NCBI GenBank assembly: GCA_947447825.1
Contig: CANFLL010000040.1
Coordinates: 1-35,304, forward strand
Direction of reading: 5' to 3'
Length of the DNA: 35,304 nucleotides
Origin: Chitinophagaceae bacterium
GTDB taxonomy: Bacteria; Bacteroidota; Bacteroidia; Chitinophagales; Chitinophagaceae
Numbering within the stretch: the first letter of the stretch is position 1; every line of letters begins with the position of its first letter. The notes below the pieces were generated by a model that made no database searches, was not told the DNA's origin, and was given only the letters and a program-made list of their open reading frames with translations. Position numbers and translations under genes: made by a program. Positions 1 to 35,304 of the stretch are shown piece after piece.

Positions 1-178
1 ATTCACTTGAGTCAGTCCACGACTCAGGTGAGTCCTTGTCTGACTCAGGTGAGTCGTCGACTCGCTCAACTGAATCTTTGTATAACTCAGGTGAGTCATC
101 GACAGACTCAGGTGAATCTTTGTATGACTCAGGTGAGTCGTGGGCTGACTCACCTGAGTCATGGACTGACTCAAGTGA
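1..178 (-). repeat. 21-bp tandem palindromic repeat array, copy A (8 units)
   Basis: Eight head-to-tail 21-bp units. Each unit consists of a 14-bp near-palindrome, GACTCA-GG-TGAGTC or its CC-centred form, plus a 7-bp linker (such as CTTGTCT, GTCGACT, TTTGTAT, ATCGACA). The period of 21 bp equals two turns of B-DNA, so the palindromes lie on one helical face. Some units keep symmetry with different bases: ATTCA-GT-TGAAT at the inner end, beside GACTCA-GG-TGAGTC elsewhere. It matches unit for unit the array at 34520-34696, in opposite orientation. Confidence 0.9.
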
Positions 179-235
179 ATATATGCGTGATTCAGTTGAA
201 TAAATGGAAGAAAGAGGACAAAAGAAAGTGCTCAT
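1..235 (-). CDS. Acidic heptapeptide-repeat protein, copy A (partial, runs off left edge)
   Basis: Unrecognised family. On the minus strand an ATG at 235 opens a frame of 78 codons that reaches base 1 without a stop. The N-terminus reads MSTFFCPLSSIYSTESR, followed by eight heptads of the type S-P-E-S-x-x-D (the x-x pairs include VH, AH, YK, VD, DK and WT) and the start of a ninth. Copy B near 34463 has the same N-terminus, the same number of heptads and the same last complete heptad (SPESWTD). No signal peptide or membrane segment is visible; the repeat is strongly acidic. The opposite strand is also open (77 codons), because a 21-bp repeat without stops is open in several frames. I favour this frame because the C/T and G/A variation inside the repeats is synonymous for Asp and Glu here but changes Ser/Asn in the opposite frame. 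It could instead be a non-coding structured element. C-terminus not in window. Confidence 0.4.
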   Translation of the reverse strand, partial: MSTFFCPLSSIYSTESRIYSLESVHDSGESAHDSPESYKDSPESVDDSPELYKDSVERVDDSPESDKDSPESWTDSSE

Positions 236-380
236 TTTGATATGCTGGGTGTTTGGGATAAGCATCGAGAGAGTTTAGAACTTTATGAGAGTTGGAACGG
301 CTGCATATAAGTTTATCGCTTTTACTCATGAAATTAGCGTTTGAACTCCTGAGGGATAACGCTCATTTTAATTTGTCAAA
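236..380 (-). repeat. Conserved leader of repeat element, copy A
   Basis: About 145 bp preceding the heptad ORF, aligned by eye with the leader of copy B (34316-34462) at roughly three quarters identity. It starts with TTTGACA and ATTAAAATGA, then the block CGTTATCCCTCAGGAG, then CTAATTTCATGAG, AAAGTTCTAAACT and GCTTATCCCAAACAC. Homology stops abruptly at 380. A short frame beginning MSKSDK inside the leader resembles MRKSDK in copy B, but a 2-base length difference after the CCCAAACAC block throws it out of frame with the heptads here. Substitutions in the leader show no third-position bias. It is therefore more likely promoter, leader RNA or DNA element than coding sequence. Confidence 0.6.
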
Positions 381-507
381 GCAAAATAAAACTCTCTTTT
401 TATTTTTTCATTGAGCTGATATCTATCTTGAATCTCGTTTTCAAATTCTTCATACAAAATAGATTATTTTAACAGATGCAATGCCAAATAGCCATTTAAA
501 GTTCTTA

Positions 508-15731: not shown

Positions 15732-15829
15732 AATCTCCTTTATAAAACGGGATAATGCAGTAGATATTGCGATAAGGCTAATATATTTTATTCTTTTTTT
15801 TAAAATTGATGGAAGTTAGTAGTTTATAT

Positions 15830-15899
15830 TCAAAAGTCGATAGTCAAAAGTCGATAGTCGAAAGCAGATAGTCAAAAGTTGATAGTCAAAAGTTTAAAG
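15830..15899. repeat. 14-bp tandem repeat, five units
   Basis: Five consecutive 14-bp units: TCAAAAGTCGATAG twice, then TCGAAAGCAGATAG, TCAAAAGTTGATAG and TCAAAAGTTTAAAG. It lies between ogt and the FN3-like gene, outside any coding frame. Confidence 0.9.
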
Positions 15900-33769: not shown

Positions 33770-34193
33770 AGTTTCTTTTTTTACAATTTATTTTGCGGGG
33801 CAATATACAAGATTTCGATTTGTGCTAATAGATTGATCATATTTAAGGATTGTGATGAATATTGAAGATAAATGAGGTTGGAATTTGGGGAAAAGGAAGA
33901 TAGTTTATAAAATTATCAACTATCAGATTTGAAAAGAATAAAAGAGTGATTTTATATTTGAAAGGAATAAATTGTGACAAATTTTTATTGGTTTAAGTTA
34001 ACGCATCCTAATTATTATTAGTATAAATAGGAATATCTCAAATACAAATAGAGCAATTGCTGCAGAATGCAGCATCTTTTTAACTTATCACCTATAACGT
34101 ATTACTTATAAATTCTTTGTTTACTGCAAATTATTCTACACAAGTTGTCATTAAACTTATAATTTAATAAGTAAGAAATCTATAAAAAGTCTT
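33770..34193. other. Gene-free stretch
   Basis: About 420 bp of AT-rich sequence between the dihydroorotase start and the 42-bp repeats. No ORF or RNA gene is recognised; the left end should contain the pyrC promoter. Confidence 0.4.
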
Positions 34194-34309
34194 TTTACTA
34201 GTATCTGATTCCAGAGAGTCCCTCAATGAGTTAATTTAACTGCTCCCATATTCCAGAGACTACCTAAATGAGTTTGTTTTACTAGTATCAGATTCAAGAG
34301 ACTACCTAA
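34194..34309. repeat. 42-bp tandem repeat, three units, just outside copy B
   Basis: Three diverged units with a 42-bp period: the core TTC[C/A]AGAGA starts at 34209, 34251 and 34293. Shared parts include TTTACTAGTATC[T/A]GATTC, AGAGACTACCTAA and AATGAGTT. The middle unit has lost part of its left half. A fourth copy lies at 35011-35060 on the other side of the repeat element, same orientation. Confidence 0.75.
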
Positions 34310-34315
34310 TTCTAA

Positions 34316-34462
34316 TTTGACAGATTAAAATGATCGTTATCCCTCAGGAGCTATACCGCTAATTTCATGAGGAAAAGTGATAAATTTTTATGCACCGGTT
34401 TCGACTCTAAGAAAGTTCTAAACTTTCTCGAAGCTTATCCCAAACACGCAGAAAATTTCAAA
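34316..34462 (+). repeat. Conserved leader of repeat element, copy B
   Basis: Counterpart of 236-380, inverted relative to it. Starts TTTGACA, then ATTAAAATGA, CGTTATCCCTCAGGAG, CTAATTTCATGAG. It contains an inverted repeat AGAAAGTT-CTA-AACTTTCT at about 34409-34427, less perfect in copy A. An ATG at 34367 opens a frame (MRKSDKFLC...) that in this copy joins in phase with the heptad ORF, but not in copy A. A role as promoter or leader RNA is inference. Confidence 0.6.
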
Positions 34463-34879
34463 ATGAGCTCTTTCTTTTGTCCTCTTTCTTCCATTTATTC
34501 AACTGAATCACGCTTAAATTCACTTGAGTCAGACAAAGATTCACCTGAGTCAGTCCACGACTCACCTGAGTCAGACAAAGATTCACCTGAGTGACTCGAC
34601 GACTCACTTGAGTCAGACAAGGATTCACCTGAGTCAGTCGACGACTCACTTGAGTCAGTCAAGGACTCACCTGAGTCGTGGACTGACTCAGGTGAGGAAA
34701 TGACGTTTTTTGATGCTAAAATTGCTAGAGTAAATGATGTATTCATTGACAGTAAAGGGTTTAAAGGAGTTTGTAGATTATACTCAACAGAATTTGGTTT
34801 GCGAAATGAGAGAAGCTTCATTCATTTGAAATCAAAGGAATTAATCATTCCTTATGGTCAAATCAATTTTCACAAGTGA
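34463..34879 (+). pseudogene. Acidic heptapeptide-repeat protein, copy B, with in-frame TGA
   Basis: ATG at 34463 gives MSSFFCPLSSIYSTESR, identical to copy A except one residue, then eight heptads S-P/L-E-S-x-x-D. The fourth heptad carries TGA at 34592-34594 where copy A has TCT (GAGTGACTC instead of GAGTCAGTC-like sequence). Past the stop the same frame stays open through the remaining heptads (last SPESWTD) and into a 60-residue non-repeat tail starting EEMTFFDAKIARVND and ending at TGA 34877-34879. The tail alone could be read from ATG 34700, with GAGG just before it. An in-frame upstream start at 34367 would add 32 residues. No known domain recognised. It may be a recently broken gene, a readthrough or recoding case, or non-coding structured DNA. 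Confidence 0.4.
34520..34696 (+). repeat. 21-bp tandem palindromic repeat array, copy B (8 units)
   Basis: Eight 21-bp units built on GACTCA-CC-TGAGTC or CACTTGAG-centred variants with 7-bp linkers of two alternating kinds (AGACAAAG-type and AGTCCACG/AGTCGACG-type). The same number of units and the same distal end (GACTCACCTGAGTCGTGG, then ACTGACTCA) as copy A at 1-178. Confidence 0.9.
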
Positions 34880-35010
34880 AACCAACCTCAATATTTTATT
34901 CTCACAAAACAAGGGTTTACCTGTTGTTCTAAAGATTTTAATAAAAAAAGAATGCCTAACCTCAAAATATTAAACACAAGCATTATGAAATCTAATGTGT
35001 CAATGTAGAA

Positions 35011-35060
35011 CTAAATGAGTTTGTATTACTAGTATCAGCTTTCAGGGAGTGCTTCAACTA
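35011..35060. repeat. Distal copy of the 42-bp repeat
   Basis: CTAAATGAGTTTGTATTACT followed by AGTATCAGCTTTCAGGGAGT closely matches 34264-34302. Together with the array at 34194-34309 it brackets copy B as a direct repeat. Confidence 0.7.
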
Positions 35061-35203
35061 CTTTTTTTGCCAATCAAAGAACTCCGCATTTCATTTAGTG
35101 ATTTCTTTGGTAGATAATAAGTTATTAAATGTCTAAATATATACCTTAGTTTCGAGGTGTACTTTCAATGTCGTTAAGTTAAGGAATTTTTGATTGATTT
35201 TAT

Positions 35204-35211
35204 TACTTTTG
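35204..35211 (+). promoter_or_regulatory. Candidate -7 box near right edge
   Basis: TACTTTTG, an exact TAnnTTTG match, 64 bp before the ATG at 35276. No -33 partner at the expected spacing. Confidence 0.3.
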
Positions 35212-35275
35212 TGACTTGAAAAAAAGTTGTAGGATTATAGGGGTAATTTATTAACACATATAAATACGAATCTGG

Positions 35276-35304
35276 ATGACGAAGATTTTAAACGCCGTAA
35301 CACC
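35276..35304 (+). CDS. Possible gene start cut by window edge
   Basis: ATG at 35276 opens nine codons (MTKILNAVT) that run off the window, downstream of a TAnnTTTG box. Another frame through the same bases (NLDDEDFKRRNT) is also open but lacks an ATG. Too short to identify. Confidence 0.3.

Follow-up and report, generated by a model that had tools for sequence, protein, structure and literature searches.

Organization of the repeat element on the contig

The DNA analyzed here (the window) is the entire contig C40 (35,304 nucleotides) of the draft genome G000 of a Chitinophagaceae bacterium, which comprises 4.65 Mb in 187 contigs and is 97.42% complete. Two inverted copies of a repeat, A and B, lie close to its opposite ends, as the initial annotation had recognized, and their match (E = 1.1e-72) is far beyond chance. 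We found that the repeat as first delimited is only part of a larger element with a unit of ~570–720 bp, bounded by the inverted ends TTCTACTTTGACAGATTAAA / TCTAATGTGTCAAAGTAGAA. Twenty full copies of 573–720 bp possess TTCTACTTTGACAGATTAAA on one side and the inverse of TTCTACTTTGACACATTAGA on the other, or close variants of these. The outer boundary, formerly placed at TTTGACA, is shifted by 6 bp farther out, to TTCTAATTTGACA (34310) and TTTTGCTTTGACA (386), and copy B extends beyond 34879, as far as the terminal repeat on its other side (35010). Copy A is half-missing because the window is the whole contig and the copy stops at the contig's end; the apparent end of its array is therefore the end of the assembly (Table 1).

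The two copies share a 51-base start segment with a single mismatch, exactly as first described. The leader, initially estimated at ~75% identity, is more similar than that, namely 83–84% (127/153 aligned columns; 124/147 when counted from TTTGACA). Each array does hold eight 21-bp units, yet these are followed by a partial 17-bp unit, which gives 185 bp in both copies. The arrays of A and B are only 85% identical (157/184) and thus hardly better conserved than the leader, contrary to the original impression of a highly conserved array next to a moderately conserved leader.

Table 1. Features of copies A and B and of the insertion target of copy B (window coordinates)
Feature	Position	Strand	Remarks
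Copy A, 5' part only	1..386	-	cut by the end of contig C40
Copy A 21-bp array	1..185	-	
Copy A left terminal inverted repeat TTTTGCTTTGACAAATTAAA	367..386	-	3 mismatches to TTCTACTTTGACAGATTAAA
Host 42-bp tandem array, insertion target of copy B	34193..34309	.	adjoining unit = uninterrupted site
Target-site duplication CTAA, left copy	34306..34309	.	
Copy B, complete element, 701 bp	34310..35010	+	terminal inverted repeats at both ends; pattern and alignment with 19 other full copies
Copy B left terminal inverted repeat TTCTAATTTGACAGATTAAA	34310..34329	+	1 mismatch to TTCTACTTTGACAGATTAAA
Copy B leader segment	34310..34462	+	83% in alignment to copy A
Copy B conserved start segment	34463..34513	+	50/51 identical to copy A; codon signature not clear
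Copy B 21-bp array	34513..34697	+	8 units + 17 bp, near-palindrome GAYTCANNTGARTC central in unit
Copy B tail segment	34684..35010	+	first bases overlap the last partial unit of the array
Copy B right terminal inverted repeat	34991..35010	-	minus strand = TTCTACATTGACACATTAGA; 3 mismatches to pattern
Target-site duplication CTAA, right copy	35011..35014	.	

Copy number and distribution

The element proved to be a dispersed multicopy family, as had been suspected, since merged leader and tail matches (best-scored candidates of each search) fall into 46 distinct places of the 187-contig host genome. Both halves are present in 29 of these, while 11 retain the leader only and six the tail only; where a contig ends within the element, two such halves may derive from a single copy. 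The leader query (best 40 of 78 candidates scored) gave 42 matches at E ≤1, of which 41 at E <1e-19 represent 40 places, i.e., A, B and 38 others. The tail query (best 40 of 97 candidates scored) gave 41 matches, largely in the same copies; five weak ones (on contigs C15, C82, C25, C69, and C4) were excluded from the count of places. As the best 40 candidates were scored per search, weak copies are undercounted. The terminal pattern TTCTACTTTGACAGATTAAA, allowing ≤3 mismatches, occurs 30 times in forward and 26 times in reverse orientation in the host genome, against 1 and 0 matches of a reversed control. A contig end is found within ~230 bp of ten of the 46 places, including copy A. The 5' boundary is free of any ORF of ≥150 residues running across it in 31 of 32 copies examined, which is a weak test of intergenic position; the exception (L063) is a copy devoid of its 5' part. 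Plasmid records searched for the element gave no match.

The leader thus recovers dozens of copies in the host genome, but the whole element was not found in other species of the genus. It was seen in the host genome only, with congeners searched by leader, tail, and end pattern (best-scored candidates), because the leader and tail hits in congeners are either other repeats or stretches of 25–29 bases. The end pattern (≤2 mismatches) matches one to five times in each of G001, G004, G007, G009, and G011, and none of these matches was shown to be the element. The leader hits in congeners trace back to a stretch of ~25 bases that forms the terminus of another MITE (GGGTGCATAAAAGTTTTTCGCTT) and recurs inside the leader of the element. 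That other MITE, of ~130 bp with GGGTGCATAAAAGTTTTTCGCTT ends, is found in congeners G002, G004, G009, and G010 (L075, L076, L077, L081, L084, L086, L087, L090, L091), and several of its copies enclose a AGACGCATATCAATGCGTCT-like palindrome. Tail hits in G003 and G004 belong to a different dispersed repeat of ~100 bp, TTTATACTCAACAGAAATTGGTTTGCG...AAATCATTTAATCAGTGGT (L135, L136, L137), which resembles part of the element's tail, while those in G005 and G010 span 25–29 bases. Judged by these shared stretches, the element may be a mosaic of resident repeats.

Target-site duplications and kinship with IS701

Among 40 leader-bearing copies, 21 have both ends recognizable, and 13 of these are flanked by identical 4-bp sequences (nine TTAA, three CTAA, and one TTAC). 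Shuffled pairings of the flanks give a mean of 7.5 matches (P = 0.001), and the four matching pairs other than TTAA compare with 0.7 expected (P = 0.0013). The remaining eight copies lack identical flanks; in a few of them the end seems displaced by 1–2 bases. Copy B also reveals its empty site: when its flanks are joined at CTAA, the sequence equals the adjoining 42-bp unit of the interrupted host array at 33 of 36 positions. With its own inverted ends, a 4-bp duplication and an empty site, copy B argues against a composite transposon, in which two insertion sequences would move the segment between them. The earlier rejection of such an arrangement therefore stands as far as can be seen, the other end of copy A being missing.

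We found that the ends of the element are of a known type. According to a review of these families (PMC2266710), IS701 elements are 1400–1550 bp long, generate 4-bp repeats and terminate in ---YACT-Y--YR, a consensus that its authors do not regard as representative of the whole family. The sequence TTCTACTTTGACA agrees with every fixed position of this consensus. When bacterial and archaeal genomes were scanned with TTCTACTTTGACASATTARA, at least 98 stretches were identified; of the 80 listed, 76 are from organisms named as Bacteroidota. Four of the listed loci (L203, L176, L195, and L199), all from taxa other than the host, carry such ends 1498–1619 bp apart with stop-to-stop ORFs of 473–486 residues between them; in L154 the ends are 1270 bp apart and enclose an ORF of 378 residues. 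The transposase scan covered L203 and L195 of the four large elements, and both proteins score well above the cut-off of 150 for NCBIfam transpos_IS701 (NF033540), with 241.7 and 233 bits, respectively, and also exceed the Pfam DDE_5 cut-off. L203 and L199 have matching flanks (TTAA and TTAG, respectively), and L176 is bordered by TTAT on one side and TTAA on the other. Short end pairs, 90–612 bp apart, occur in 29 of the 80 listed loci, with no ORF of ≥100 residues listed between the ends. Thus, among the matches listed (L147–L226), both short TTCTACTTTGACA-ended elements and 1.5–1.6-kb transposons are widespread in Bacteroidota. In a congener, G004, locus L124 (1999–3478; contig C59) holds a broken IS701-like DDE_5 element, which is bordered by TTAA on both sides and whose ends resemble ours, with 2 and 3 mismatches.

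The element itself has no recognizable gene of its own. Full copies measure 573–720 bp and encode no DDE transposase, which excludes an autonomous IS701 element, and a Pfam search with two translated reading frames of copies A and B gave no hit. A DDE_5 or L203-like transposase was not detectable in the host draft genome (187 contigs, 97.42% complete), so that for this genome we infer the mobilization. We did not count the missing autonomous partner as defining, because partners can be lost. Several candidates for this role were rejected. The DDE_5 gene of G008 is associated with other ends (TTACTGATGTTACGCA), and ours are absent at the expected place; they are likewise absent at the expected place around the DDE_5 gene of G002, a locus cut by a contig end. 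Among leader-only copies inspected by eye, L042_5318 looks like a decayed copy, L058 runs from the leader into an apparent IS3-type first ORF, and L061 continues from the leader into unrelated sequence. L053 (3769–4163; contig C79 of the host genome) is a truncated leader copy followed by a different, unrelated 21/63-bp array.

The inverted ends, the 4-bp duplications, the empty site, the dispersion, and the presence of the same ends on Bacteroidota IS701 elements lead us to assign the element, by sequence, to the non-autonomous IS701-type MITEs. The initial annotation knew of no described family of this form, and regarded a match to a known IS family as evidence against its view. Such a match exists in part, as the ends and the 4-bp duplications are those of the IS701 family, while the element and its array have no description in the literature that we searched.

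Sequence and constraint of the central 21-bp array

The array unit consists of the near-palindrome GAYTCANNTGARTC and a 7-bp spacer. We compared 186 interior units from the 31 of 39 arrays that could be cleanly cut into units (one of those retained, L067, is anchored within its array). Best conserved are the arms of GAYTCA-NN-TGARTC; the central dinucleotide is variable, as is most of the spacer. The inner six arm positions (TCA, TGA) are fixed in 183–186 of the 186 units. Accordingly graded are the arm pairs: the four inner ones are formed in 183–185 units, the fifth in 167, and the outermost in 140. One arm position is occupied by C in 113 and by T in 73 units, and the G opposite to it is fixed in 179; the resulting T-G combination, present in 69 units, would pair, as a wobble, in leader-strand RNA alone. 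Pairing of each arm with the next unit is possible as well, and the full copy B folds with z = -7.07 relative to 20 shuffles.

The arrays comprise from two to nine units, and yet in all 30 arrays with both ends their length is equal modulo 21. This regularity extends into the tail, whose first ~70 columns show zero indels across 34 aligned copies. Tail columns 1–60 (1,983 aligned bases) contain 0 indels vs. 84 in the next 240 (~7,450 aligned bases), copies less than 70% identical to the consensus being excluded from these rates (L063 for the tail). At the rate of the remaining tail, a calculation by hand gives some 22 indels expected in those 60 columns, or ~16 once the lower substitution rate is taken into account. 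Between a point just left of the array and ~70 bp beyond its right end, the only indels are whole units. The simplest reading of this shortage is a constraint on spacing or structure, with a peptide as the rival. The centre is less free to vary than a neutral passenger, and the MITE reading alone does not account for that.

It might be argued that the array is the functional part, i.e., a structured RNA or a DNA binding array with two helical turns per unit, selected at each locus, and that mobility is secondary. The fixed inner arms around a variable centre and spacer, the T-G combination suited to leader-strand RNA, the stable fold of the full element, and the near absence of indels from the central stretch are all consistent with such a function. 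Yet unit number varies from two to nine, and variation in the arms is mostly one-sided, without compensatory pairs, and the two outer pairs form in fewer units than the inner ones. Furthermore, a search of positions 34100–35304 of the window against Rfam yielded four hits with E ≤1, none of which came near its gathering score. We consider this explanation rather unlikely, and prefer to see the array as cargo of the MITE.

Protein-coding potential

The initial annotation read the start segment and the array as a protein (MSxFFCPLSS...) with heptad repeats, and neither codon statistics nor the integrity of the frame sustains this. In copy B the ORF is broken by a stop codon in frame, and the same forward frame is interrupted in 20 of the 31 clean arrays, with one TGA recurring in many of them. 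Changes per codon position amount to 42, 36, and 50 of 575 in the forward start segment, and to 31, 47, and 31 of 594 in the reverse direction; there is no clear third-position excess in the frame of either strand.

Another possibility is that the centre constitutes a small gene of ~80 residues running opposite to the leader strand, beginning with MNTSFNLAILASKNVIY and continuing through DSGES-type heptads to FKRDSVE and a stop, in which case the element would spread and protect a heptad-repeat peptide. The indel-free stretch does coincide with this frame, the nearest indels lying just beyond its ATG and stop; array length shifts only by multiples of 21 bp, and the frame (-3) is open across 24 of the 31 clean arrays. 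However, the other seven arrays contain stops and a different reverse frame is open almost as often (22 of the 31), so that openness follows from the repeat. The N-terminal part is the one that lacks a third-position excess in the reverse counts given above, and the TCA and GGT codons of the array are invariant at the third position, in contrast to variable first and second positions, although other codons do vary at the third position. The reverse frame of copy B has no Pfam match up to E = 1. We concluded that the array is not under clear protein constraint, and regard such a gene as improbable.

21-bp arrays as a wider feature of the genus

The array of the element is not the only one of its kind. 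In a 400-kb sample of the host genome (contigs C1–C5), we counted 30 tandem arrays of ≥80 bp, of which 24 repeat with a period divisible by 21, and the 42-bp array into which copy B inserted also belongs here. None of these 24 lies inside an ORF of ≥200 residues, and ORFs of ≥80 residues cover eight of them. Samples of 5 to 354 kb from 11 congeners contributed 27 such arrays out of 40, in 6 of the 11 genomes; the largest sample, that of G011, was taken mainly from contigs with leader hits, and in this genome 2 of 19 arrays lie inside ORFs of ≥200 residues. Altogether, 51 of the 70 long tandem arrays in the genus sample (1.03 Mb; L245–L284, L308–L326) show periods of 21 bp or multiples thereof. 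In contrast, 0.66 Mb of other genera (11 of the family and 8 of the order), mostly richer in G+C and including two tiny samples without any G or C, presumably masked sequence, yielded three long arrays, one of them (168 bp) with a 21-multiple period. The density of 6.0 per 100 kb, when extrapolated, corresponds to nearly 300 such arrays in the host genome.

The units of these arrays are mostly unrelated, although some families of arrays or of flanks reappear in the sample, with matches elsewhere for 26 of 72 queries drawn from arrays and flanks. Folding better than that of shuffled-unit controls (p ≤0.05) was detected for 9 of 20 host arrays and 4 of 19 arrays of G011; hairpins are thus enriched in arrays of the host genome, but not universal. 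Around the 24 host arrays we found only weak 14-base inverted pairs, none convincing, and these arrays are therefore not evidently MITEs. The literature searched contains no description of a class of 21-bp arrays. As a tentative proposal, which we hold to be possible rather than probable, the genus might have a dedicated, undescribed process that makes and maintains hundreds (by extrapolation) of intergenic arrays whose unit is fixed at 21 bp, or two DNA turns, mostly unrelated and often hairpin-forming, one of which the MITE captured and now spreads under selection for spacing and palindromes.

Proposed origin of the element and comparison with known systems

Taken together, we favor, with a probability of about 0.9, a reading in which copies A and B belong to a non-autonomous MITE family with IS701-type ends that is moved by the IS701 transposase of another element, and in which the array is carried along, forms hairpins, and is a member of the class common to the genus. 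An IS701 transposase from another element, now lost from the host genome or unassembled, would recognize the ends and move copies into TTAA/YTAA-like sites. The central array would travel with the element and may gain or lose whole 21-bp units through slippage or unequal exchange. Its palindromic units are probably best read as DNA or RNA hairpins rather than peptide, and it would represent one of the many intergenic 21-bp arrays of the genus. We consider it most improbable that the element acts as a recombination-prone repeat serving to invert or rearrange the chromosome, as in the inversion of the 34-kb segment between A and B envisaged by the initial annotation. Copies in opposite orientation on contigs C40 and C39, and the ten places near contig ends, would fit such a role. 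However, draft assemblies are expected to break at repeats, and A and B, only ~83–85% alike in leader and array, are poor substrates for homologous recombination.

Compared with insertion sequences of the IS701 family (PMC2266710; NF033540), our element has ends that fit ---YACT-Y--YR, 4-bp duplications, and the same 20-bp ends as the 1498–1619-bp Bacteroidota elements, but it is 570–720 bp long, lacks a transposase and contains a central 21-bp palindromic array. The short elements with TTCTACTTTGACA ends, which come mainly from Bacteroidota and account for 29 of the 80 loci listed, have ends identical in type; they are shorter than the present element, and the comparison concerns ends alone. 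The element is therefore ordinary in kind, as a MITE of a known transposase family, and unusual in content, owing to the palindromic 21-bp array with constrained spacing. We know of no internal tandem hairpin array in MITEAba12. This MITE, like other bacterial MITEs, resembles our element in being non-autonomous, dispersed, and derived from insertion sequences, as far as its description goes (PMC6382973).

An apparently unknown repeat is thereby turned into a MITE with IS701-type ends, and its exact ends can be used for finding copies elsewhere. Its array led to a wider feature, that of 21-bp periods which dominate the genus sample and are almost absent from the other genera sampled. For the genomes of this genus it raises the question of what fixes 21 bp, whether helical phasing, a polymerase or recombination step, or 7-bp slippage. 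The closest parallel to this class seems to be the intergenic heptanucleotide repeats TAACTGA of Beggiatoaceae, which are reported (PMC4679880) to be likewise abundant short-period direct repeats of one bacterial lineage. Yet these consist of one 7-bp word, whereas the genus studied here has 21-bp units of many sequences, one of them inside a mobile element. Periods based on 7 were also observed outside the genus, in 9 of 18 control arrays from the same family, and the window itself includes, at 15826–15893, a 14-bp tandem repeat, ATAGTCAAAAGTCG, in 4.9 copies.
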